64,000 nt of DNA, taken from positions 1,240,001 through 1,304,000 of the forward strand of contig NZ_CP016382.1 of the NCBI RefSeq assembly GCF_002813635.1. The letters run 5' to 3'. Shown piece by piece: positions 2,015-13,238 of this stretch. This DNA is from Spiribacter roseus. Its GTDB lineage: Bacteria > Pseudomonadota > Gammaproteobacteria > Nitrococcales > Nitrococcaceae. Under the pieces are notes generated by a model that had not been told where the DNA came from, ran no database searches, and was given only the letters and a program-made list of their open reading frames with translations. Numbering within the stretch: the first letter of the stretch is position 1; every line of letters begins with the position of its first letter. The position numbers were made by a program, and so were the translations under genes.

Positions 2015-3028
2015 ATGACAGCCAGCTTTTCCCCCGACAAGGCGCCGCGCCCCGGCGCCAATCAGTTGCCTGCCCGACTGGCGGCGCGGGAGCGGCCGAT
2101 CATCATCGGTGTCGCCGGCGACAGCGGCAGCGGCAAGAGCACCTATACCCAGGGCATCGAATGGCTGCTGGGCTCCGAGCGGGTCAGCCAGATCAGTCTT
2201 GACGGCTATCATGCCGAGGATCGGGCGACGCGCCGCGTATCCGGACGCACCCCGCTGGATCCCGAGGCCAACCACCTCGATCGCGCGGTCAGCCACATCA
2301 AGCGCCTGCGCGCCGGCGAAGCGGTCGAGGTGCCAGTGTACGACCATGCCTCGGGCACATTCCGCGCGCCGCGCCTGCATACGCCGACGCCGGTGGTGGT
2401 CATCGAGGGCCTGCACACCCTTTATCCGGCTTTCCGTCCGCTGCTCGACTTCTCGGTGTATGTGGACACGGCCGCCGCCGTGAAGCGCGACTGGAAGCAG
2501 CGCCGTGACACGCGGGAACGCGGCTATGCGGAATCCGATGTGGCCGCCGAGATCGAGCGACGGGCCCATCAGTACGACCGCTGGATCGCCGGCCAGCAGG
2601 ATGTCGCCGATGTCATCCTGCGCATCCACCCCAGCGAGCTCAGCGAACTGGCCGTGGGCCAGCTGAGCGCCGAAATGCCCGAGACCTGCTATCACCTGGA
2701 ACTGATCGTGACGCCCCGTGACGATGATCAGCAGTCGCTGTTCCTGCCGGTGGATCTGAGCAACATGACCCGCCAGACCGCCATGCCCTTCATGCTGGCC
2801 ACCGTGCCCAGTCAGTTCCGCGGCCAATCGGTGAATGTGCTGCATGTCGACGGCTACATGGCGCCCACGGCCCTTGAGACCCTGGAATATGCGATCTCCG
2901 CCTTTGTGGGACTGGACGCGCCAGCGGGTGATCCGGTCAACGGCGCCACGCAGCCATCCACAGTCCGCTTCGCGCAGATGCTGGTGGCCTGGCCGGTGCT
3001 CAACCGCATTGTTGCACTGAGCGGCTAG
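2015..3028 (+). CDS. Phosphoribulokinase-family protein (class II-like)
   Basis: This 337-residue P-loop kinase resembles the cyanobacterial/plant (class II) phosphoribulokinase family. The Walker A loop GDSGSGKS is at about residues 35-42, SLDGYHAEDR at about 61-70 matches the catalytic-Asp region (LDDYH in class II enzymes), and VVIEGLHTLYP and DFSVYVDT follow the class II order. Known enzymes phosphorylate ribulose 5-phosphate in the Calvin cycle; the broader family includes uridine kinases and uncharacterised PRK-like proteins in heterotrophs. No RuBisCO or other Calvin-cycle gene is in the window, so the substrate is open. The ATG at 2015 is preferred over an upstream GTG at 1985. The stop overlaps the convergent patatin stop within CTAG. 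Confidence 0.75.
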   Translation: MTASFSPDKAPRPGANQLPARLAARERPIIIGVAGDSGSGKSTYTQGIEWLLGSERVSQISLDGYHAEDRATRRVSGRTPLDPEANHLDRAVSHIKRLRAGEAVEVPVYDHASGTFRAPRLHTPTPVVVIEGLHTLYPAFRPLLDFSVYVDTAAAVKRDWKQRRDTRERGYAESDVAAEIERRAHQYDRWIAGQQDVADVILRIHPSELSELAVGQLSAEMPETCYHLELIVTPRDDDQQSLFLPVDLSNMTRQTAMPFMLATVPSQFRGQSVNVLHVDGYMAPTALETLEYAISAFVGLDAPAGDPVNGATQPSTVRFAQMLVAWPVLNRIVALSG

Positions 3029-3858
3029 TCGCGCAGGAAGGTCTCGATGGCGGGCTGCAGACGCGCAACCGCCGCCTCGCCCTCGGCGATCGCATCATCG
3101 GCACGATGCAGTTCCAGCAGATCGATGTGGGCGAGCTGCGGGGCGATCAACAGATCCGGCGGATCTCCAGCCATGCGGCTGCGGGTGATGCGATCCTGCA
3201 TGACGTTCACCGCCGTGGCGATCACATCGAGCACCCCCGGTGGGGCGCTGGCATCGGCGGGCTGCGCCGGAATGCGCCGGCCCATCAGGCCGTCGCTGAG
3301 GTTGACGGCGATCACCCGATCGGCCCCCATCGCGTGGCACAGTGAAATGGGCACCGGATTGACCAGCCCGCCATCCGCCAGCCACTCGGAATCCCGGTAG
3401 ACCGGGGTAAAGAGCCCCGGCAGCGCCATTGACGCGCGCACCGCGCTGGCCAGATCCCCCCTGCGCAGCCAGCGCTCCTGGCCGCTGTACAGGTCCGTGG
3501 CCACCACCCCCAGCGGGCGCTGCAGGTCAGCAAAATCCACTGCCCCCAGGGTGCGGTCGAGCTGCGCCATCAATCGATGCCCCTGGATGAAACCGCCATG
3601 CCCCAGATTGACGTCGATGTAGCTCAGGACATCGCGGCGCTTGAGCGATCGCACCCAGGTCTCGAACGCGTCCAGCCGGCCGTTGCAGAACATCGCGGCG
3701 ACGATGGCACCCACTGACGTCCCGGCGATGATTGACGGCTCGATGCCCTGCTGACGCAGGGCGCGGATGACGCCGATGTGTGCCCAGCCGCGCGCCGCGC
3801 CGCCGCCCAGGGCGAGGCCGATGCGCCCGCCCGGCGGCGACGGGCGTGACTCAGTCAT
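3025..3858 (-). CDS. rssA: Patatin-like phospholipase (RssA type)
   Basis: This 277-residue serine hydrolase has the patatin layout: glycine-rich oxyanion loop GGGAARG (residues 18-24), nucleophile elbow GTSVG with Ser48, and the DGG of the Ser-Asp dyad in the second half. Bacterial RssA/NTE-type proteins hydrolyse phospholipids or lysophospholipids; the exact substrate is not known. No signal peptide is visible, so it is probably cytoplasmic or membrane-associated. Its start overlaps the 3' end of the YceI gene by 8 bases, which suggests co-transcription with YceI and the CDP-alcohol phosphatidyltransferase upstream. A role in turning over a lipid made by that transferase is speculation. Confidence 0.85.
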   Translation of the reverse strand: MTESRPSPPGGRIGLALGGGAARGWAHIGVIRALRQQGIEPSIIAGTSVGAIVAAMFCNGRLDAFETWVRSLKRRDVLSYIDVNLGHGGFIQGHRLMAQLDRTLGAVDFADLQRPLGVVATDLYSGQERWLRRGDLASAVRASMALPGLFTPVYRDSEWLADGGLVNPVPISLCHAMGADRVIAVNLSDGLMGRRIPAQPADASAPPGVLDVIATAVNVMQDRITRSRMAGDPPDLLIAPQLAHIDLLELHRADDAIAEGEAAVARLQPAIETFLRD

Positions 3859-4447
3859 CCTCGCGGATGGCCTCGAACTCGATGATCAGTTCGACCCGGT
3901 CACCCACCAGCTCATTCTCGAGCGCGTAGTCCATGCCGAACTCGCTGCGCCGGATCGCGCCACGCGCCGATCCGCCCAGGGTGTCGGCACCGCCAATGGG
4001 ATGCTCACCGCGGCGATTGAGGGTCAGATCGAGCTCAATGGGGCGCGTGACGCCGAGCATCGTCAGCTCGCCGCGCAGGATGCCCTCGCCCTCGCCGGTG
4101 GGTTCATAGCCGCTGGCCTCAAAGACGATCGTCGGATGGGCGTCCGCGGCCAGGAAGTCCCCGTCGCGCACATGACCATCGCGTTCATCGTGGCCGGTAA
4201 AGACGCTGTCGGCCGCCACTTCGACCCGCCCCGATTCAAGCGTTCGGGTCTCCGCGTCATAACGGAACCCGCCGCTGACATCGGTGAACTGGCCGAGGAC
4301 ATCGGCAAAGCGGGCATGCCCGATCAGGAAACCGACACTGACATGGCTTTCATCCAGCCGGAAACGCTCCGGCTCGGCCTGGACCGGTGCCGTCATCAGG
4401 CCCAGCGCGAGCAACGGGGCCAGCGCGCGCATTGCATTGTGAACCAT
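3851..4447 (-). CDS. YceI-family periplasmic lipid/isoprenoid-binding protein
   Basis: This 198-residue secreted protein has the YceI lipocalin-like beta-barrel: an N-terminal signal peptide (cleavage expected after VQA, about residue 24), the FRLDESHVSVGFLIGH opening strand, and DFLAADAHPTIVFEA in the middle. YceI barrels bind polyprenyl or amphiphilic ligands in the periplasm. The ATG at 4447 is chosen because GAGGAGG lies six bases upstream; an upstream in-frame TTG would place that site inside the gene. It follows the CDP-alcohol phosphatidyltransferase stop by 11 bases and overlaps rssA by 8 bases, a lipid-themed operon beside the pterin-like cluster. Confidence 0.88.
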   Translation of the reverse strand: MVHNAMRALAPLLALGLMTAPVQAEPERFRLDESHVSVGFLIGHARFADVLGQFTDVSGGFRYDAETRTLESGRVEVAADSVFTGHDERDGHVRDGDFLAADAHPTIVFEASGYEPTGEGEGILRGELTMLGVTRPIELDLTLNRRGEHPIGGADTLGGSARGAIRRSEFGMDYALENELVGDRVELIIEFEAIREDD

Positions 4448-4458
4448 GAGAGACCTCC

Positions 4459-5175
4459 TCAATGATCGGCTGTCCGCGATAAAGTGACCCCGTCCACGAT
4501 AAAGGAATAACTGAGCAGGATCAGCAGCACGGCGGCCGACGGCGGCACCCAGGCGGCGGGAAAGTCCGGTGCCAGCAACACCACGAGGGCACCGGTCTGC
4601 ACCCCGCAGATCACCCGGCGACGCTGTGAGGGCGGCAGGGGCCGGCGCAGCGCGGGACGCCAGTAACCGGCAAGGATGAACGCATAGCGCCAGCCACCGA
4701 TGGCGAGCACCCAGGCACCCGCGAGATCAAGCCGGAGCAGCCACAGTGCCAGCACCAGCAGCAGCACGGCATCCAGCTCCATATCAAAGCGCGCCCCTGC
4801 AGGGGTCTGACAACCCAGACGCCGCGCCACCCAGCCATCGATGCCATCCAGCACAAAGGCCGTCATGCCGAGCGCGAAGGGCAGCATGGCGACGTTCGGC
4901 CCGCTCCCGGCAGCGGGCAGGAGCCCGACCAGCAACATCACGAGCAGGCCGCGCCCCATGGTCACCCGATCAGCGGGGGTCAGTACCCGGTTGCCCACCA
5001 GCCGCCACACCAGCAGGGCCAGCGCGGCATAGGCGGCCAGCGCCAGCGGCAGCACCCCGGCGGGCAGATCCAGCGTCTGCTGCAACCCGCCGGCGGCGGC
5101 GGTCAGCACAATGGCCGCCACCAGCAGGTCGGGTAGGATCTGCAGGGGTGAATCGTCCGTCCCGGGGGGAACCAA
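4459..5175 (-). CDS. CDP-alcohol phosphatidyltransferase family protein
   Basis: This polytopic membrane enzyme has 238 residues from a TTG start; the true start is uncertain because no clear ATG or Shine-Dalgarno site fits. The family motif D-x2-DG-x2-AR-x8-G-x3-D-x3-D is complete (Asp110, Asp113, Gly114, Ala117-Arg118, Gly127, Asp131, Asp135). These enzymes move a phosphatidyl group, or in some members another phospho-alcohol, from a CDP-alcohol to an acceptor hydroxyl. About five or six hydrophobic helices surround the motif. The acceptor cannot be read from sequence; this is not obviously PgsA or PssA. It is divergent from the BchC-like gene by 60 bases, so both may share a control region. 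Confidence 0.82.
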   Translation of the reverse strand: MVPPGTDDSPLQILPDLLVAAIVLTAAAGGLQQTLDLPAGVLPLALAAYAALALLVWRLVGNRVLTPADRVTMGRGLLVMLLVGLLPAAGSGPNVAMLPFALGMTAFVLDGIDGWVARRLGCQTPAGARFDMELDAVLLLVLALWLLRLDLAGAWVLAIGGWRYAFILAGYWRPALRRPLPPSQRRRVICGVQTGALVVLLAPDFPAAWVPPSAAVLLILLSYSFIVDGVTLSRTADH

Positions 5176-5235
5176 TGCTACGCTCCGTTTTCCGAGTCAA
5201 TTCGCCAAGTCTAGCAGCATGAGGACCGCACCGGC

Positions 5236-6210
5236 GTGACCCGTCAACATAGCAGTCAGGCCTTCTGGATCGTGGCGCCGCGCAGCGGCGGGATCCGCGA
5301 TGAATCGGTCGCGGTAGCCGACGACGATTCGGTGGGCATCCGCGCCCTTTACTCGGGCATCAGTCATGGCACCGAGTCGCTGGTCTGGCAGGCGCGGATC
5401 CCTGTCAGCCAGCAGACCCGCATGCGCGCACCTTTCCAGGCCGGCGAGTTTCCAGCGCCGGTCAAGTATGGCTATGCCAGTGTCGGCGTGGTCGAGTCCG
5501 GCGCCGAGGCATTGATCGGACAGACGGTGTTCTGCCTCTACCCCCACCAGCGCCGCTACACCGTGCCGCTTGCCGCCGCCCATCCACTGCCGGCGGGCCT
5601 GCCGCCGGAGCGCGCGGTACTGGCCGCCAACGTCGAGACCGCCCTGAACATCTGCTGGGACGCCGAACCCCGAGCCGGCGAGCGCATCAGCGTGATCGGC
5701 GCGGGCGTGGTGGGTGCGCTCGCCGCCGCGCTCTGCGCCGAAATCCCCGGCACCGAGGTGGAGCTGGTGGACATCAATCCGGATCGCCACGCGCTTGCGG
5801 CGCCGCTGGGTGTCGCCTTTGCCACACCCGATGCCGCGCGCCCCGACAACGACCGGGTCATTCACGCGAGCGCCAGCGAGTCCGGCCTGGCCCTGGCCCT
5901 GAGGATCGCCGCAGACGAGGCCATGCTGATCGAGGCAAGCTGGTTTGGTGACCACCCGCCCCAGGTGCCACTGGGCGAGGCCTTTCACTCGCGCCGCCTG
6001 ACCCTGCGCGCCAGCCAGGTCGGACAGCTCGCCCCGGTCATGCGCCCGCGCTGGGACCATGGCCGACGCATGCGCAAGGCCCTGGAACTGCTGGCTCATC
6101 GCACCCACTGGGATTGTCTGATCGACGGCGAGACCGCCTTTGATGATCTGCCAGCGACGATGGACTCGATCGTCACCCGGCCGGGTCTGTGTCACCGCAT
6201 CAAGTACTAA
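5236..6210 (+). CDS. BchC-like MDR-fold dehydrogenase lacking catalytic zinc ligands
   Basis: This 324-residue protein (GTG start) has the medium-chain dehydrogenase fold: a GroES-like N-terminal half and a Rossmann half opening with VIGAGVVGALAA. The segment SGISHGTESLVW (about residues 40-51) resembles bacteriochlorophyllide dehydrogenase BchC (SGISTGTE-type), while the usual zinc ligands of alcohol dehydrogenases (Cys in GxCHTD, His in GHE) are replaced by Ser and Tyr. It is expected to be an NAD(P)-dependent oxidoreductase of a hydroxylated ring or side chain, not a standard zinc alcohol dehydrogenase. It opens a tightly packed five-gene operon; the next gene starts 9 bases downstream. 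BchC function itself is unlikely, since no photosynthesis genes are nearby. Confidence 0.75.
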   Translation: MTRQHSSQAFWIVAPRSGGIRDESVAVADDDSVGIRALYSGISHGTESLVWQARIPVSQQTRMRAPFQAGEFPAPVKYGYASVGVVESGAEALIGQTVFCLYPHQRRYTVPLAAAHPLPAGLPPERAVLAANVETALNICWDAEPRAGERISVIGAGVVGALAAALCAEIPGTEVELVDINPDRHALAAPLGVAFATPDAARPDNDRVIHASASESGLALALRIAADEAMLIEASWFGDHPPQVPLGEAFHSRRLTLRASQVGQLAPVMRPRWDHGRRMRKALELLAHRTHWDCLIDGETAFDDLPATMDSIVTRPGLCHRIKY

Positions 6211-6219
6211 GGAGACAGA

Positions 6220-6624
6220 ATGTACAGCGTCAACGTCCGCGATCACTTCATGATCGCCCACAGCTTTCAGGGCGAGACATTCGGGCCCGCCCAGGCCCTG
6301 CACGGCGCCACTTACGTCACCGATGCCACGTTCTTTCGCGACGGCCTCGACGATGACAATGTGGTGGTGGACATTGCCCGCGCCAGCACGGTGCTGCACG
6401 ACATCCTGTCGCGCTACAACCTCGTCAACCTCGACAGCCTGCCGGAGTTCGAGGGCGTCAACACCACCACGGAGTTTCTCGCCCGGCATATCGCCGATGC
6501 GCTGGCGACCGCCATTCACGCCGGTGAACTGGGCGAAACCGCCCGCACCCTGGATCGACTGCGGATCACCCTGCACGAGTCGCACATCGCCTCGGCCGCC
6601 TACGAGCGCTCGCTCCAGCTGTGA
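6220..6624 (+). CDS. Degenerate 6-pyruvoyltetrahydropterin synthase / QueD-like protein
   Basis: This 134-residue T-fold protein is recognisable as PTPS/QueD by AHSF (His14), ALHGATY (His28) and the NTTTEFLARHIA helix (residues 81-91, with the conserved Glu85). It departs at the active site. The third zinc histidine (HGH in true enzymes) is Ala30, there is no catalytic Cys between the first and second zinc histidines, and the LDH motif is replaced near YNLVNLD (66-72). It probably binds a pterin-like or pyrimidine ligand but should not catalyse the normal side-chain reaction. An AAGGAG-type site precedes the ATG. Its stop overlaps the GTG of the glycosyltransferase by four bases. Confidence 0.78.
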   Translation: MYSVNVRDHFMIAHSFQGETFGPAQALHGATYVTDATFFRDGLDDDNVVVDIARASTVLHDILSRYNLVNLDSLPEFEGVNTTTEFLARHIADALATAIHAGELGETARTLDRLRITLHESHIASAAYERSLQL

Positions 6625-7697
6625 CCGTCTGCCATTTCCTGGTGCCGGGGTCACTGGACCGACCCACCGGGGGAAGCCGTTATGACCGCCGGATCATCGA
6701 CGGCCTGCGCGGTGCGGGCGTTAGCGTCGACGTCGACGCCCTACCCGGCTGCTTTCCGGATGCCGACCCCACCGCCCGCGAGGCCGTGGATGCCGCGCTT
6801 GCGCGGATCCCGGATGGTCGGGTGGTGGTGATCGACGGTCTGGTGCTGGGACGACTGGCGTCGACGGTGGCCCCGCACGCCGGGCGCCTTCGCATTCATG
6901 CGCTGGTGCATCACCCCCTGGCCGATGAAACCGACCATGACCCCGCCCGGGTGGAGCAACTGATCCATGACGAAGCCCGTGCGCTGGGCGCGGCGACCCG
7001 CGTCATCGCCACCAGCGCCTTCACCGCCCAACGGCTGCGGACGCTGGGGTTGAACGCGGGCGAAGTCAGCGTCATCCCACCCGGATGCACGCCGCGACCG
7101 CTCGCCACGGGACGGCCGGGGCAGCCGCCGTTGCTGCTCTGCGTCGCCTCGATCACGCCGCGCAAGGCCCAGCATCGCCTGATCGAGGCGCTAGCCGGGC
7201 TGGTCGACCGACCCTGGCAGTGCCAGCTCATCGGCGCCTTGGATCTGGATCCCGACTATGCCGCCGCCATCGCCAGACAGCGCGACGCCGAGGGCCTGCA
7301 GGACCGCATCACCCTCACCGGCGCCGCCGACGAGCAGCGTCTGGACGAGGCCTATCGCCAGGCCGAGCTGTTCGTCCTGCCGTCGCTCTACGAGGGCTAC
7401 GGCATGGTGATCAGCGAGGCCGTCGCCTACGGGCTGCCGGTAATCACCACCACCGGTGGTGCGCTGGCAACCACCCTTCCGCCGGAGGCCGGCATCGCTG
7501 TCCCGCCGGACGACCCGACAGCGCTGCGCGACGCCATCGCCGCGCTACTGGATGACCCCTCCCGACGTCAGGCCCTGGCGCGGGGGGCCCGTCGCGCCCG
7601 CCGCGAGCTCAATGACTGGGATCGGAGCGTCGCGCTTTTCATGGCTCTCATCGAGGAGGCATCGCCATGCCCGAGCAGTTTGCCGCCCGCTGGCTGA
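6621..7697 (+). CDS. Glycosyltransferase family 4 (GT-B fold)
   Basis: This 358-residue enzyme has the two-Rossmann GT-B layout of GT4: a glycine-rich N-terminal loop (RPTGGSRYDRRI), the hinge region LLLCVASITPRKAQ, and the C-terminal EX7E nucleotide-sugar motif in PSLYEGYGMVISEAV. GT4 enzymes are retaining and use NDP-sugars on lipids, polysaccharides or small molecules. It starts with GTG in a GTGA overlap with the PTPS-like gene, and its 3' end overlaps the methyltransferase by 31 bases, so it is clearly part of this operon. The likely acceptor is the product of the neighbouring pterin-like enzymes; that is inference. Confidence 0.85.
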   Translation: MTVCHFLVPGSLDRPTGGSRYDRRIIDGLRGAGVSVDVDALPGCFPDADPTAREAVDAALARIPDGRVVVIDGLVLGRLASTVAPHAGRLRIHALVHHPLADETDHDPARVEQLIHDEARALGAATRVIATSAFTAQRLRTLGLNAGEVSVIPPGCTPRPLATGRPGQPPLLLCVASITPRKAQHRLIEALAGLVDRPWQCQLIGALDLDPDYAAAIARQRDAEGLQDRITLTGAADEQRLDEAYRQAELFVLPSLYEGYGMVISEAVAYGLPVITTTGGALATTLPPEAGIAVPPDDPTALRDAIAALLDDPSRRQALARGARRARRELNDWDRSVALFMALIEEASPCPSSLPPAG

Positions 7698-8488
7698 CCC
7701 TGCGTGAGCCGGCCGACCATGCGGCCCGTGACGACACGCTACTCACGCCCCTGATCGACGTCCTGCCGCGGGATCGAACGATCCGTATCACCGATCTGGG
7801 CGCCGGTGCCGGCAGCAACCTGCGCTACCTGGGCCCACGCCTGCCCCGGGCGCAGGCGTGGACGCTCATCGATCACGATCGCGGGCTGCTCGACCAGGCG
7901 GTGGCCCTGGCGCATCCAGCCGGCGACGATCGCCACGTGGCACGGGTTCAGGCCCGGGCCCACCCGGCCGATCTCGGCACATTCCCCGACTGCCTCGACA
8001 CAACGCCCGATCTGCTCACCGCCTCGGCCCTGCTCGATCTGGTGCCGGACGCCTGGCTGCGGCGGGTGGTGGACACCTGCTGCCGGCGCGGTCTGCCGGC
8101 CCTGTTCGCACTCAACGTGGACGGCCGCCTGGCGTTTTCCCCCACGCTGGAGGCTGACCAGCAGGTCGAGGCCGCGGTCCTTGCCCACCAGCGCGGAGCC
8201 AAGGACATGGGACCGGCGCTGGGCCCGGATGCCCCCGCCGTTGCAGCGCAGATGTTCCGCGAGCGCGGGGCAAGCGTTGACTGCCGGGCCAGCGACTGGC
8301 ATCTCACGCCGGAACAGGCTGCGCTGCAGCGGCCACTCATCGAGGGCTGGCATGCCGCCGCCCGAGCCCAGCAACCCGACGCCGCCGCGGTCATCGATCG
8401 CTGGAGGGACGAGCGCCTGCGCGCGCTCGAGCACAGTTTCATCACGGTCGGGCATCAGGACCTGCTGGTCATTCCGTGCCGCGACTGA
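7667..8488 (+). CDS. Class I SAM-dependent methyltransferase
   Basis: This 273-residue Rossmann-fold methyltransferase has motif I DLGAGAGSN at residues 43-51, an acidic residue at the end of strand 2 (TLIDHDRGLL) and a motif IV-like stretch (LLTASALLDLVPD). Members of this family methylate small molecules; the acceptor is unknown. The ATG is chosen because GAGGAGG lies seven bases upstream, even though this makes the gene overlap the glycosyltransferase by 31 bases. It overlaps the next gene by 13 bases. Its place between a glycosyltransferase and a membrane protein suggests a late tailoring step. Confidence 0.84.
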   Translation: MPEQFAARWLTLREPADHAARDDTLLTPLIDVLPRDRTIRITDLGAGAGSNLRYLGPRLPRAQAWTLIDHDRGLLDQAVALAHPAGDDRHVARVQARAHPADLGTFPDCLDTTPDLLTASALLDLVPDAWLRRVVDTCCRRGLPALFALNVDGRLAFSPTLEADQQVEAAVLAHQRGAKDMGPALGPDAPAVAAQMFRERGASVDCRASDWHLTPEQAALQRPLIEGWHAAARAQQPDAAAVIDRWRDERLRALEHSFITVGHQDLLVIPCRD

Positions 8489-9354
8489 TCCGGCTGCTGG
8501 TCAGCCTGGCCATTCTGGGCCTGATCGCCCGGCAATTCGGGGCCGGCGTGCTCGAGCGGCTGCAGGCCATCGAGCCGGGCTGGATGATCGTGGGGTTGTC
8601 CATCACCGTTGCCCAGGTGCTGCTGTCGGCATGGCGTTGGCGATTTACCGCGGCCCGGCTGCAGATCGCGCTGCCGGCGGGCCGCGCCGTGGGCGAGTAC
8701 TACCTGGCGACGCTGGTCAATCAGGTGCTGCCCGGCGGTGTGGTAGGCGACGCTCAGCGCGCCTGGCGCCATAGTCAGGGCATGCCGCGGCGTGGACCGG
8801 CCTTTCAGGCGGTGGTCATCGAGCGGCTATCGGGTCAGCTCGCCATGGTGGCCATCGCGGTGGGCGTATGGGTCTACTGGCCACCCGGTGGCGCGCTGAG
8901 CCTGCCCATTTCGTCGGGCGGCCTGGCATTGACCGCGCTGACGGCCGCCGCGGTGGTCATCGCCATCGGCCTGATTCCGCGCCACCGGCGCGCCTGGCTC
9001 GGCGACTGGCGCCGCGCACTGCACTCGGCGCTGCTGACCCCCCGCGTGCTGCCCATCCAGCTGGCCGCTTCCCTGGCCGTCGCGGCCAGCTATATCGCGG
9101 TCTACGCCTGCTGCGTCCTGGCACTGGATCCGGCGGCACCGGCGTCCGCCTGGCTGCCACTGATACCACTGGTCCTGTTCACCATGCTGATCCCCGCAAG
9201 CATCGCGGGATGGGGACTACGCGAGGGGGCGGCCGCCCTGCTCTGGCCGCTGGCCGGGTTGCCCGCGGCGGAGGGCATCACCGCTGCGGTACTCTACGGC
9301 GCGCTGTCACTGGCGGCCAGCACGCCCGGTCTGATCATGCTGATACGGCGTTGA
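8476..9354 (+). CDS. UPF0104 / lysylphosphatidylglycerol-synthase-type membrane protein
   Basis: This 292-residue integral membrane protein (GTG start) has about seven or eight hydrophobic helices and the UPF0104 pattern: an early RLIRLLVSLAILGLI helix, the YYLATLVNQVLPGGVVGDAQRA-like loop (about 75-95) and the late IPASIAGWGLREGAAALLWPL segment. The family includes the membrane domain of MprF, which flips lipids, and proteins found with glycosyltransferases. A role in moving a lipid-linked product across the inner membrane fits its operon with a glycosyltransferase and a nearby CDP-alcohol phosphatidyltransferase. Its 3' end overlaps the convergent RibD-type gene by 20 bases. Confidence 0.82.
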   Translation: MPRLIRLLVSLAILGLIARQFGAGVLERLQAIEPGWMIVGLSITVAQVLLSAWRWRFTAARLQIALPAGRAVGEYYLATLVNQVLPGGVVGDAQRAWRHSQGMPRRGPAFQAVVIERLSGQLAMVAIAVGVWVYWPPGGALSLPISSGGLALTALTAAAVVIAIGLIPRHRRAWLGDWRRALHSALLTPRVLPIQLAASLAVAASYIAVYACCVLALDPAAPASAWLPLIPLVLFTMLIPASIAGWGLREGAAALLWPLAGLPAAEGITAAVLYGALSLAASTPGLIMLIRR

Positions 9355-10159
9355 AATCGAGCCGGTAGAGCCGATCATCCCCCAGGTCGAAGGGCGTCAC
9401 CGCGGGGCGCAGGGCCTCGTCCATGTGATCGATGCGCGGCAGATTCAGGCCGGTTGGCCCTGATCCAATGATCACCGGCGCGACCACCAGATAGAGCGTA
9501 TCTACCAGGCCCGCCGCCAGCCATGCGGAAACGGTTCTGGCCCCACCTTCCACCAGCAGTCGCTGCACACCCGCCGCGGCCAGGCACTGCAGCGCTGTGG
9601 CCGGCGCCAGATCGGGCAGCGCAAAACGGCGATCCACCGCGGGAGCCGCCACCGACGGGCCGGTCAGCGCCCAGGTGGGGGCCGCGCCATCCCGCAGGAG
9701 CGCCGCGTCAGCCGGCAGCCCGCTGCGACTCATGATCACCGCTCGAACCGGGTTGGGTCCCGCCACTTCACGGACGGTCAGGCGTGGATTGTCGGCGACG
9801 ACGGTCCCGGCGCCGACCAGCACCGCATCGCAGAGCGCCCGCAGGCGATGCAGGTGGGCCCGGTCAGCGGCGCCCGTCACGTAATGGGAATGCCCGGTTG
9901 CCGTGGCGATACGCCCGTCGAGGCTCTGGCCAAGCTGCGCGACCACCCGCGGCCGTTGCCGGACCGGGGCGAGCAACGGGGCATAGCGCGCCTGCAGTGC
10001 CGGGGCGACGGCCTCGGCAGCGATTCCGCCGATATCCGCCGGCCATTCCACCGGTTGCGCCGCAGCGGGCAGGGAACAGCGCCGGCACTGGGCGACGAGC
10101 GCTTCCCAGCCCATCGGCGGTGGGGCCGCCGCCCCGCGGGATCGGTTATGCTGTGTCAT
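9335..10159 (-). CDS. RibD C-terminal-type reductase
   Basis: This 274-residue protein contains only the reductase half of RibD (dihydrofolate-reductase fold), not the zinc deaminase half. Recognisable segments are LGQSLDGRIA (about 76-85), the AVLVGAGTVVADNPRLTVR loop (about 112-130) and LLVEGGARTVSAWL followed by VVAPVIIG (NADPH site). RibD and the Rib7/Arr family reduce the ribosyl side chain of a GTP-derived pyrimidine to ribityl. About 70 extra N-terminal residues include a CRRC pair of unknown purpose. It is divergent from the GTP cyclohydrolase II gene, 62 bases apart, so the two early-pathway genes may be co-regulated. Confidence 0.83.
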   Translation of the reverse strand: MTQHNRSRGAAAPPPMGWEALVAQCRRCSLPAAAQPVEWPADIGGIAAEAVAPALQARYAPLLAPVRQRPRVVAQLGQSLDGRIATATGHSHYVTGAADRAHLHRLRALCDAVLVGAGTVVADNPRLTVREVAGPNPVRAVIMSRSGLPADAALLRDGAAPTWALTGPSVAAPAVDRRFALPDLAPATALQCLAAAGVQRLLVEGGARTVSAWLAAGLVDTLYLVVAPVIIGSGPTGLNLPRIDHMDEALRPAVTPFDLGDDRLYRLDFNAVSA

Positions 10160-10221
10160 ATTGACGGAATTGTTGCAGGCATGAACGGTCTATTGCGAAA
10201 AGTTGATTCCAAGGAGCAGGC

Positions 10222-11334
10222 ATGCAGCGCATCCGGCGCGCACTGATCGACCTCAGACGGGGTGAGCCCGTCCACGTGACCCATCCCGCCGGCGCGATGC
10301 TGGTGCTGGCACTGGAAAACCTCAGCGACGGTCTGATGGCCCGGGCGCGGTCGCTGGCCTCCGGGGAGGCGCGGCTGCTGATGACCCGCCACCGGGCACG
10401 GGCCATCGGCATGGAAACCGCTCCCGGCGAGGATCTGGCCGTTCCCCTGGATACCGATGACGGCGTCGCGACCGCGGTCACACTGGCCGGCGATCTCACT
10501 ACCCGCAGCGCCGAGCCGGTGGCCCGTAATGCCCGCGCCGACGAGCAGGCTGCCCTGGATCTGGCCCGTCAGGCCACACTGCTGCCAGCGCTGATCGCCA
10601 TCGATACCCATGACAACGACCGCGCATTGGTCGATGACATCCGCAATGGCGAAATCCTCTCGGTTGATGTCGCGGATATCCACGCAGCGGGTATCGAGAA
10701 TGCCCGCCAGCCGGAGCGCATCAGCGAAGCGCAGGTCCCGCTGGCCGATTCAGAGCAATCGCGGTTCATTCTCTACCGCGAGGCGGACGGGCTGCTCGAG
10801 CATGTCGCGCTGATGGTGGGCGATCCCGACCACTGGCCGGACACGCCGGCGCTGCGTATGCACTCGGCCTGCCTCACCGGGGATCTGTTCGGATCGCTGC
10901 GCTGCGACTGCGGCGAGCAGCTGCGCAGTGCCGTGGGCACGATCGCCGATGAGGGCGGCGGGATCCTGCTCTACCTCGCCCAGGAGGGGCGCGGCATTGG
11001 TCTTGCCAATAAACTGAGGGCCTACGGTCTCCAGGACACGGGCCTCGATACCGTCGACGCCGATCGGCTGCTGGGCTTCGGCGCGGATGAACGCCGTTAT
11101 GAGGTGGCCGCGGCCATGCTCGACGATCTGGGGATCAGCCGCGTCCGCCTGATGACCAACAACCCCGGCAAGATTGCGGCCCTCGAGCGGCACGGCATTC
11201 AGATCGCCGGCCGCGAGGCGGTTCACGGCGCACTCAACCGCCACAACGAGCGCTACCTGACCACCAAGGCGGAGCGCGCGGGCCACTGGCTGGATGATGT
11301 GGTTTCGCAGTCGGTGGGCGAACAGCCCCGCTAG
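10222..11334 (+). CDS. GTP cyclohydrolase II with degenerate RibB-like N-terminal domain
   Basis: This protein has 370 residues. The C-terminal domain (about 172-360) is a complete GTP cyclohydrolase II: zinc ligands Cys217, Cys228 and Cys230 (CLTGDLFGSLRCDC), the EGRGIGLANKL loop, and Tyr293 at the position that GCH II enzymes use for full hydrolysis. The first 170 residues have the length and order of 3,4-dihydroxybutanone-phosphate synthase (RibB) but lack its acidic DREN-EGD active-site loop, so that half should be inactive. The expected product is the diaminopyrimidine that also begins riboflavin synthesis. An AAGGAG site precedes the ATG. The clustering with non-riboflavin genes suggests a dedicated paralogue. 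Its stop overlaps the convergent creatininase stop in CTAG. Confidence 0.87.
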   Translation: MQRIRRALIDLRRGEPVHVTHPAGAMLVLALENLSDGLMARARSLASGEARLLMTRHRARAIGMETAPGEDLAVPLDTDDGVATAVTLAGDLTTRSAEPVARNARADEQAALDLARQATLLPALIAIDTHDNDRALVDDIRNGEILSVDVADIHAAGIENARQPERISEAQVPLADSEQSRFILYREADGLLEHVALMVGDPDHWPDTPALRMHSACLTGDLFGSLRCDCGEQLRSAVGTIADEGGGILLYLAQEGRGIGLANKLRAYGLQDTGLDTVDADRLLGFGADERRYEVAAAMLDDLGISRVRLMTNNPGKIAALERHGIQIAGREAVHGALNRHNERYLTTKAERAGHWLDDVVSQSVGEQPR

Positions 11335-12140
11335 TACCCGGGCGCTGGCGGCGACAGGCACGCCAGGGGGAAATCCGCCGCCTCGGTCAGAATGGCGGCC
11401 AGTGCATCGGCATAGTGCCGGGCCAGGCGGGCACCCAGCGCCGCATCCGCCAACCGGGCATCCCCGCAGACGCCGGCCGGATTGAGGTCGCCGGCCAGCC
11501 AGGCGAATCGTGCCGGGCGCGACTCGGCACCGATCCACTCAAACGCCGCCAGGGCCTCGAACTCCACCGAGGTATGATGGGCAATCGCGCTGGCCACCAC
11601 CTGCTGCGGCGCGAAGTGCCACATCAACGCCGTCTCCAGCGCGCCGCCGTGCAGCCCCTCGCGGGCCTCGCGGGCGGTCAGCGCATCAGCAGGGGGCGGA
11701 AAGTCGAAATAACAGGCCTGCACCACCAGCAGACCAAAATCCCGGCGCAGCCGCAGCGCCGCGGTAGCCATCGCCGCCAGGTTGCCACCATGCGCGGAGA
11801 ACATCACCACGCGGCGCAGCCCGGCGCGGGCCAGCGACGCCCCCAGATCATAGAGCATGGCCTCGAAGGTGGCCGGGGAAAGCGCCAGGGTACCGGCCCA
11901 ATCCATGTGCTCAACACCCTGTCCCAGTGCCTGGGTAGGCATCCGCAACACGTGCACCCGCTTATCACAGCGCTGCATGGCCGCTTTTGAGAGCCCCTCC
12001 GCGATCCAGGCGTCAGTGGCCAGTGGCAGGTGCCCCCCGTGCTGCTCTATGGCCCCCAGCGGCAGCAGTGCGACACTCGCCTCGCTGATATCGTCGCGCA
12101 GGGAATGGGTGGTGTGGTCGGCCCAGTCGTGGGCGGTCAT
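11331..12140 (-). CDS. Creatininase-family metal-dependent amidohydrolase
   Basis: This 269-residue protein belongs to the creatininase family. Metal-site residues are visible: GAIEQHGGHLPLATD carries Glu32, His34 and Asp43, SAHGGN carries His117, and GGALETALM carries Glu169. Characterised members include creatininase, the mycofactocin protease MftE and the archaeal deformylase ArfB, which acts on a GTP-derived formamidopyrimidine in riboflavin and F420 synthesis. The convergent GTP cyclohydrolase II gene makes an ArfB-like or other GTP-pathway amidase role attractive. Its start overlaps the stop of a uracil-DNA-glycosylase-family gene in ATGA, so it is translationally coupled to a DNA-repair-type gene, which weakens the pathway argument. 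Confidence 0.83.
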   Translation of the reverse strand: MTAHDWADHTTHSLRDDISEASVALLPLGAIEQHGGHLPLATDAWIAEGLSKAAMQRCDKRVHVLRMPTQALGQGVEHMDWAGTLALSPATFEAMLYDLGASLARAGLRRVVMFSAHGGNLAAMATAALRLRRDFGLLVVQACYFDFPPPADALTAREAREGLHGGALETALMWHFAPQQVVASAIAHHTSVEFEALAAFEWIGAESRPARFAWLAGDLNPAGVCGDARLADAALGARLARHYADALAAILTEAADFPLACLSPPAPGY

Positions 12141-12817
12141 GCCTGGCCCTCCAGCGCGTCCAGGCGCGCCGCCAGCAGACCCGGGAAGCGCTTGAACCAG
12201 GTTGCATTGAGCGGCGAGGGATGCGGCAGCGGATGCAATCGCAGCGACCGTCGCCGTCCATCCGGGCCGTGGAATGCCATGTCGAGGGATTTTGAGAAAC
12301 GCCCATCAAGCCGCCAGTGATCATCCAGCCGCCGGCGCTCGGCCGGCGACTGTTCAAGACCGAACCAGAAGAAGGCTTCGCGCCCGAGGGTGATCACCTC
12401 GCGCCCCTGCCATTGATCCAGCAACAGTTCGGCGACCAGGGGCTGGAAGTGTCGTTTGACGCCCATGGGCCAGGCCTTGTTGCCAACGGGTTTGTAGGGG
12501 ACGGTGTTGGCCCAGAAATAGGGCTCACCGGCGGCCAGCGCCCCGGCGGTGTCGGTGAGCGGGGCGTGAAACCGGCGCTCGTGCAGCACCCGTCGGACCT
12601 GCCGGCCGCCGGCGCCGATGAAGGGCACGCCGACATGCACCTCATCGCGCCCCGGGTCGCGACCGAAAAAGGCAATGCGAGCATCCGCCGGACCGAGACC
12701 GAATATCGGTTCGGTCGGGTCCCGCCCGGCGGCGGCATAGACCGCATCATCGCGACCGGTGAGCCCGGCGGCCGCCGTGCGAAAGCGCTCGCGCAGGGCG
12801 CCGGGCAGGGTCCGCAT
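12137..12817 (-). CDS. Uracil-DNA-glycosylase superfamily protein
   Basis: This 226-residue protein has the UDG fold motifs: a GRDPGRDEVHVGVPFIGAGG active-site loop (a GEAPG-type motif 1) and HPSPLN near the C-terminus (motif 2). Family 4/5-type enzymes carry Cys ligands for a 4Fe-4S cluster; no such set of cysteines is seen here, so this is a distinct subfamily with an uncertain substrate. The ATG at 12817 lies one base after the stop of the upstream 139-residue gene, and the stop overlaps the creatininase start in ATGA. The three genes therefore probably share a transcript. Confidence 0.8.
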   Translation of the reverse strand: MRTLPGALRERFRTAAAGLTGRDDAVYAAAGRDPTEPIFGLGPADARIAFFGRDPGRDEVHVGVPFIGAGGRQVRRVLHERRFHAPLTDTAGALAAGEPYFWANTVPYKPVGNKAWPMGVKRHFQPLVAELLLDQWQGREVITLGREAFFWFGLEQSPAERRRLDDHWRLDGRFSKSLDMAFHGPDGRRRSLRLHPLPHPSPLNATWFKRFPGLLAARLDALEGQA

Positions 12818-12818
12818 G

Positions 12819-13238
12819 TCAGTGCACGGTGGCCTGACGCTCGCGGGATTCCTTGAGCACGCCCACGACGTCTTCTTCCCAGCTCTTGGCGAGTGGCGAC
12901 TGGGCCACCAGTGCCGAGACCTCGTCGGCGCTGACGGGATCACCCCCATCGTCGCCGACGGCGAGGCGGAAGTGATCCGCGTCGCGCAGCTCGTAGGCGC
13001 GCTCCCCGCTGTCGCCATCGCCCACGCGCAGCGTGATCTCGTCGGCGTCGACAATCGCCCGCCAGTTGACCTGCGCCATCCAGCCGCGGGCGTTGGAGTA
13101 CAGGGACACGCCCGCCAGCTCATGGCCGCTGCCCCGCTGATTGTCCATGACGTGGACGCTGCTCGAGAGGTGCTCGAATGGATTGTCTTCGAGAATCTGC
13201 AGGAGCTCTTGCTTGGGGATAACGGGCTCTGCTCTCAT
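12819..13238 (-). CDS. Conserved-looking protein of unknown function
   Basis: I do not recognise this 139-residue protein. It is acidic, apparently soluble and without a signal peptide or membrane segment; it has the look of alternating strands and helices (SVHVMDNQRG, WMAQVNWRAIVDADEITLRVG). The ATG at 13238 is chosen because AGGTGG lies eight bases upstream; in-frame ATGs further up would run into the divergent proQ promoter. It lies directly upstream of the UDG-family gene with one base between them, so a DNA-related role is possible but unproven. Confidence 0.65.
   Translation of the reverse strand: MRAEPVIPKQELLQILEDNPFEHLSSSVHVMDNQRGSGHELAGVSLYSNARGWMAQVNWRAIVDADEITLRVGDGDSGERAYELRDADHFRLAVGDDGGDPVSADEVSALVAQSPLAKSWEEDVVGVLKESRERQATVH

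Follow-up and report, generated by a model that had tools for sequence, protein, structure and literature searches.

A conserved gene cluster around a PTPS-IV protein in Spiribacter roseus with a probable role in making a GTP-derived compound

The stretch of DNA analysed here, referred to as the window, covers 64,000 nucleotides of the genome of Spiribacter roseus, a single contig of 1.93 Mb, and the subject of this article is the cluster of nine genes at window positions 4459-12140, which most likely represents a conserved pathway from guanosine triphosphate (GTP), separate from the syntheses of riboflavin, coenzyme F420 and queuosine. All nine genes listed in an initial annotation of this DNA were found, their coordinates and families matching; they are given below together with the adjoining yceI gene, absent from that list, the four genes marked as core being those that recur together in other genomes.

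3851..4462, minus strand: YceI-like periplasmic lipid-binding protein (PF04264, 2.7e-35)
4459..5175, minus strand: CDP-alcohol phosphatidyltransferase, CDP-OH_P_transf (PF01066, 6.8e-13)
5236..6210, plus strand: medium-chain (MDR) dehydrogenase, core (TIGR01202 weakly, 33.6 bits)
6220..6624, plus strand: PTPS-IV subfamily protein, core (PF01242, 1.9e-20; PDB 3D7J/SCO6650, 5.5e-47)
6621..7697, plus strand: GT4 glycosyltransferase, core (PF00534, 5.9e-31)
7667..8488, plus strand: class I S-adenosylmethionine-dependent methyltransferase, core (predicted structure, pLDDT 95)
8476..9354, plus strand: UPF0104/LPG_synthase_TM membrane protein, flippase-like (PF03706, 1.4e-35)
9335..10159, minus strand: RibD_C reductase without a deaminase domain (PF01872, 1.8e-40)
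10222..11334, plus strand: paralogue of GTP cyclohydrolase II (GCHII), GTP_cyclohydro2, with ~165 extra N-terminal residues (PF00925, 2.6e-56)
11331..12140, minus strand: creatininase-family amidohydrolase (PF02633, 3.4e-59)

The five middle genes, from the dehydrogenase to the UPF0104 protein, form a single tight run on the plus strand (5236-9354), a 9-base gap being followed by overlaps of 4, 31 and 13 bases, just as the initial annotation had described them as overlapping or nearly touching. The remaining four flank this run on separate transcripts: the CDP-alcohol phosphatidyltransferase gene is paired with yceI (4-base overlap), the RibD_C gene is convergent to the run, the GCHII gene stands on its own transcript and the creatininase gene is paired with a UDG-family gene, again with a 4-base overlap.

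Concerning the recurrence of the cluster, genomes representing GTDB species were scanned with the PTPS-like protein, which yielded 178 relatives; the counts per 80 given throughout refer to the best 80 of these, a set made up of the closest relatives and hence biased, with contig ends truncating some of the loci. Near the PTPS gene, the dehydrogenase is present at 80/80 loci, the methyltransferase at 76/80 and GT4 at 75/80, followed by the CDP-alcohol phosphatidyltransferase (62-63/80), RibD_C (44-50/80), YceI (40/80), UPF0104 (24/80), the creatininase (23/80) and GCHII (18/80). An even draw of 299 Pseudomonadota genomes, 239 of them well-assembled, added 18 PTPS-bearing loci beyond the window's own, with PTPS-IV occurring in 19 of the 239 (~8%), the genome of the window included. 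At these 18 loci, the dehydrogenase and GT4 are found 18 times each, the methyltransferase 16 times, RibD_C 15 times, and GCHII, the CDP-alcohol phosphatidyltransferase and UPF0104 seven times each. By our own rough estimate, a neighbouring gene with one or two copies per genome would be met by chance at about 1% of loci, so that the linkage of the core (16-18 of 18) exceeds chance co-occurrence. The core of dehydrogenase, PTPS, GT4 and methyltransferase spans Pseudomonadota, Actinomycetota, Gemmatimonadota and Acidobacteria, its hosts including Thioalkalivibrio, Halomonas, Variovorax, Amycolatopsis, Actinomadura, Gemmatimonadota and one Acidobacteria bin; the co-occurrence of the families elsewhere, proposed as a check in the initial annotation, was thus borne out across four bacterial phyla and, in part, in haloarchaea.

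The same picture emerges from 59 related genomes, in which the dehydrogenase and strong PTPS matches fall in an identical set of 23 and in none of the others. The cluster RibD_C paralogue tracks this pattern, the exceptions being incomplete or contig-edge cases, while the long GCHII breaks it, occurring also in six related genomes with neither PTPS nor the cluster RibD_C. In six Thioalkalivibrio genomes whose core locus has neither RibD_C nor GCHII, these genes lie side by side elsewhere and thus stay paired. The cluster proteins also show correlated pairwise distances (Mantel, r 0.48-0.84).

With regard to the individual core proteins, the designation of the dehydrogenase as BchC-like, made in the initial annotation, had to be abandoned: its TIGR01202 score of 33.6 bits is far under the equivalog cut-off of 291, and what the gene encodes is a divergent medium-chain dehydrogenase in which S43, E47, H104 and E134 are invariant. 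The predicted structure of the methyltransferase has the class I fold (best Z 19.4, to 3mgg), the fold search giving the general class only.

The PTPS protein carries the FGPAQ signature of PTPS-IV (COG0720) at residues 21-25. Among solved structures, SCO6650 (PDB 3D7J, 5.5e-47) is nearest to it, a protein that has reportedly lost the zinc and the catalytic triad while keeping the pterin-binding residues. Over 31 aligned sequences, the zinc histidines H14 and H28 as well as Glu120 are invariant; in the bacterial proteins, according to this alignment and a profile alignment to QueD/PTPS, the third zinc histidine is an alanine, the catalytic cysteine is replaced and LNY or a similar triplet stands in place of the LDH motif of QueD, the pterin-anchoring Glu120 being retained. 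A queuosine role (QueD, PTPS-I) was rejected by both motif and score, since CxxxHGH is needed and the window protein has AxxxHGA, with 34 bits to TIGR03367 against a cut-off of 89. The biopterin (PTPS-II, CxxxxxHGH) and folate (PTPS-III, ExxHGH) types were rejected likewise, the corresponding stretch reading PAQALHGA.

The cluster GCHII retains the zinc cysteine triad and the catalytic Tyr, Asp and Arg, as compared with a reference sequence of Escherichia coli RibA, for which an identity of 60% with the RibA of this genome served as a check, and it is PRK08815-like (335 bits, under the cut-off of 464). It differs from the genome's ordinary RibA in having Ala253 in place of Arg (YLAQEGRG versus YLRQEGRG), this position before QEGRG being occupied by Ala, Gly, Ser, Asn or Asp in the cluster GCHIIs. 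The creatininase accompanies 25 of the 29 Ala/Gly/Ser enzymes and none of the five Asp enzymes, a distribution confounded by phylogeny. A Met in place of Tyr is reportedly the published FAPy switch residue in Streptomyces coelicolor SCO6655. The window GCHII and nearly all the cluster GCHIIs keep the Tyr, only the one from Actinomadura (L086) having a His; the switch residue thus gives no ground for predicting a formyl product for the window enzyme, and this line of argument was rejected.

As far as the RibD_C protein is concerned, its best solved match is 6p8c, a 2,5-diamino-6-ribosylaminopyrimidinone phosphate reductase (100 bits, versus 71 for Bacillus subtilis RibD). By this match and the lack of a deaminase domain it is of the non-deaminating (archaeal/fungal) type. 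Within NCBIfam it scores 132 bits with TIGR00227 and 97 bits with the archaeal TIGR01508, both under cut-off, so that the type does not prove its substrate specificity. For the creatininase-family protein, a precedent exists in BrbF, a member of the same family for which deformylation of the first pyrimidine derived from GTP has been proven in Sinorhizobium and Brucella (PMC9478397); the substrate of BrbF/ArfB is 2-amino-5-formylamino-6-ribosylaminopyrimidinone 5'-phosphate. Because such a deformylase is known, the creatininase fits the cluster, and by analogy it is proposed to be a formamidase in the BrbF/ArfB role. Its link had initially been held to be weaker on account of the coupling of its start to the UDG-family gene; the overlap is real, but the link is stronger than supposed in view of the 23/80 relatives, a haloarchaeal cluster with the same gene and the BrbF precedent.

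A more distant version of the cluster resides on six haloarchaeal plasmids. In four of these haloarchaea, the dehydrogenase, PTPS-like protein, GT4 and methyltransferase follow the bacterial gene order, and in two Haloarcula the dehydrogenase, PTPS-like protein and methyltransferase lie together, with GT4 further off. Models built from the bacterial proteins score the haloarchaeal dehydrogenase, PTPS and GT4 at 44-255 bits and the methyltransferase at 39-67 bits, by which the homology is confirmed. The cluster of H. sinaiiensis (L181) has both the creatininase and the CDP-alcohol transferase near the core, the haloarchaeal homologues of the latter reaching 67-85 bits with the cluster model. 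In the two Haloarcula clusters, the place of GCHII is taken by the unrelated GTP cyclohydrolase III (GCH III; PF05165, 3.4e-81), and this exchange is the best sequence evidence pointing to GTP as the starting material, in support of what the initial annotation had assumed.

It appears from the above results that the cluster makes a GTP-derived, methylated and glycosylated compound, to which we assign a probability of about 0.6. The presence of the cluster, its conservation, its linkage and its separateness from riboflavin synthesis are established by the analysis; the reactions and the product are what we infer from them. GCHII would open GTP to give 2,5-diamino-6-ribosylamino-4(3H)-pyrimidinone 5'-phosphate, the creatininase-family protein—by analogy with BrbF/ArfB—presumably carrying out the deformylation wherever the formyl group stays on after the cyclohydrolase step. 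The stand-alone RibD_C, its nearest solved relative being of the same type, would then produce the ribityl form with no prior deamination, so that the 2-amino group is kept. The dehydrogenase and PTPS-IV could convert the side chain and the ring to a pterin-type or related compound, PTPS-IV keeping the glutamate that reads the 2-amino-4-oxo ring but having lost the catalysis of PTPS/QueD. The methyltransferase may add a methyl group and GT4 a sugar, as suggested by their families and strict linkage. In many genomes—the present one included, although not in all—the CDP-alcohol phosphatidyltransferase might finally join the compound to a lipid, UPF0104 might move it across the membrane and YceI may bind it there.

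Several observations weigh against this pathway. GCHII is within reach at only 18/80 relatives and 7/18 even-draw loci and two Variovorax genomes give no match to the long GCHII, so that a start from GTP is deduced for the cluster as a whole without being universal in it. The Mantel correlations are partly due to species relatedness, the Amycolatopsis loci are without GT4, and on some Streptomyces plasmids PTPS-IV stands alone. The haloarchaeal PTPS is only ~35% identical and keeps the HxH motif, which means that it may catalyse a different reaction; moreover, RibD_C was not found near the core in the haloarchaeal clusters. In archaeal riboflavin synthesis, reduction precedes deamination (the ArfC order), whereas bacteria deaminate first. 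The absence of RibD_C would fit this order, since archaea already reduce before deaminating, and it would be the bacteria that need a special reductase in order to keep the 2-amino group.

The attachment to a lipid is a more tentative part of the proposal, with the odds leaning somewhat against it. The motif of the CDP-alcohol phosphatidyltransferase family (DG-x2-AR-x8-G-x3-D-x3-D) is intact in the translation; the gene is, however, present at 63/80 loci of the closest relatives but at only 7/18 of the even draw, so that we regard it as a probable tailoring step, and a variable one. YceI belongs with the cluster because it adjoins it in 40/80 relatives, and cytochrome b561 and YceI, recurring beside the cluster, suggest by association a membrane or periplasmic role. 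One may go further and imagine a novel class of pterin-like compounds that carry a sugar and a methyl group, are anchored in the membrane and are made from GTP by a pathway, led by GCHII or GCH III, common to Bacteria and haloarchaea; in view of this recurrence, they might act in periplasmic redox or ultraviolet absorption. This is a doubtful extension.

The same unevenness of the partners leaves some room, though not much, for the locus being two systems, with the core using another precursor, the CDP-alcohol phosphatidyltransferase, UPF0104 and YceI forming an independent envelope-lipid module, and GCHII and RibD_C being linked by regulation only. Many loci lack the CDP-alcohol phosphatidyltransferase, and the same holds for UPF0104, for GCHII, for the creatininase and for YceI; an MdoH-like GT2 replaces the first of them upstream of the dehydrogenase in several even-draw loci; on the other hand, the CDP-alcohol transferase and the creatininase recur with the haloarchaeal core too, and RibD_C is present in 15/18 even-draw loci. 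This is unlikely, and slightly more so is a bypass of GTP cyclohydrolase I (GCH I), in which RibD_C would reduce C1' and the dehydrogenase oxidise C2' to give the keto intermediate of GCH I and, from it, dihydroneopterin phosphate, then methylated and glycosylated to a pterin glycoside resembling those of cyanobacteria. Judged by the established GCH I mechanism, such a route would be in chemical agreement with the enzymes at hand; the glutamate that anchors pterins is retained in PTPS-IV, and pterin glycosides are known from cyanobacteria and Chlorobium (PMC13259868, PMC5683033). The position of the oxidation is, however, assumed, and the route is a special case of the GTP-derived pathway proposed above.

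A second riboflavin or flavin-secretion branch, with the additional RibA- and RibD-like proteins as its supply, is far less probable. GCHII, RibD_C and—by the BrbF precedent—the creatininase are indeed members of the early riboflavin pathway, but a complete riboflavin operon ribD-ribE-ribBA-ribH is located elsewhere in the genome (L052), with an ordinary ribA at yet another place, so that the GCHII and RibD_C of the cluster come in addition to a full set and plain riboflavin supply was rejected as their task. In keeping with the initial annotation, which had seen no normal riboflavin set here, ribB, a ribD deaminase, ribH and ribE were not found within 4459-12140; the cluster RibD_C lacks the deaminase, and the strict linkage is to the dehydrogenase, PTPS, GT4 and methyltransferase. 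A function of PTPS-IV in F420 synthesis, mentioned for archaea as unpublished (Zallot 2016, PMC5041015), can practically be dismissed for these bacteria, because CofH exceeds its family cut-off in none of the 59 related genomes and has no match in the genome of the window, although 22 of the 59 besides the latter carry PTPS-IV and 3 of 14 control genomes were positive for CofH.

With respect to systems already described, the FGPAQ signature of PTPS-IV and its PF00925 and PF01872 neighbours were reported, without a function, for 561 sequences in the 2017 AGeNNT study (PMC5445326), where PF00925 was termed GTP cyclohydrolase I (FolE2), the Pfam family being GTP cyclohydrolase II. The PTPS-IV/GCHII/RibD_C neighbourhood of that study and of PMC5041015 is the same as that found here; neither names a pathway or product, and the links to GT4, the methyltransferase, the dehydrogenase, the CDP-alcohol phosphatidyltransferase, the creatininase and the haloarchaeal GCH III come from the present analysis. 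The pterin glycosides—cyanopterin and those of the limipterin type, made with a pteridine glycosyltransferase—likewise have a pterin made from GTP that bears a sugar and, in cyanopterin, also a methyl group (PMC5683033, PMC13259868), but their synthesis sets out from GCH I and from tetrahydrobiopterin or its relatives, whereas the cluster links GCHII or GCH III with RibD_C and a possible lipid step. With the archaeal/fungal ArfA-ArfB-ArfC order and bacterial BrbF, the cluster shares the non-deaminating reductase, GCH III (in Haloarcula) and a separate formamidase role for the creatininase family; unlike the ArfA/B/C route to riboflavin and F420, it has no deaminase, lumazine synthase or riboflavin synthase and leads to the other core genes. 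No description of the dehydrogenase-PTPS-GT4-methyltransferase core, of the whole pathway or of its product was found in the open-licence literature. Should the proposal be true, PTPS-IV, for which a structure has been solved (SCO6650, 3D7J) and no published function was found, would be given a pathway. The proposal would also predict a further metabolite derived from GTP that is new and may be a lipid, and it would correct the routine annotation of the cluster genes as enzymes of queuosine, riboflavin or chlorophyll synthesis.

A few further observations concern the surroundings of the cluster. An MdoH-like GT2 occupies the place of the CDP-alcohol phosphatidyltransferase upstream of the dehydrogenase at eight loci (L163, L169, L171, L173, L174, L175, L177 and L135), six of which have cytochrome b561 nearby. 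A membrane protein annotated as sulfatase (L137:4205-5791), with no Pfam match at 1e-5, has relatives near the cluster in 23/80 loci, often together with an FkbM methyltransferase or cytochrome b561. On Streptomyces linear plasmids (L134:10001-10399 and L136:10001-10426), the PTPS-IV gene occurs without the other core genes, its neighbours encoding a BTAD-type regulator, a sigma factor, an MBL-fold hydrolase and a cupin. A contig labelled as a Bifidobacterium breve metagenome-assembled genome (L126) has a Proteobacteria-like copy of the cluster, the bin being probably mislabelled. Within the window, yceI is adjoined by a gene for a patatin-like protein (3025-3858), kept at this place in Spiribacter-type relatives and one more genome (L041), while clusters at a greater distance showed none. 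At the other end, the UDG-family protein (12137-13123), whose gene overlaps the creatininase start and is conserved beside the cluster in close relatives only, has ~130 N-terminal residues outside the UDG domain.

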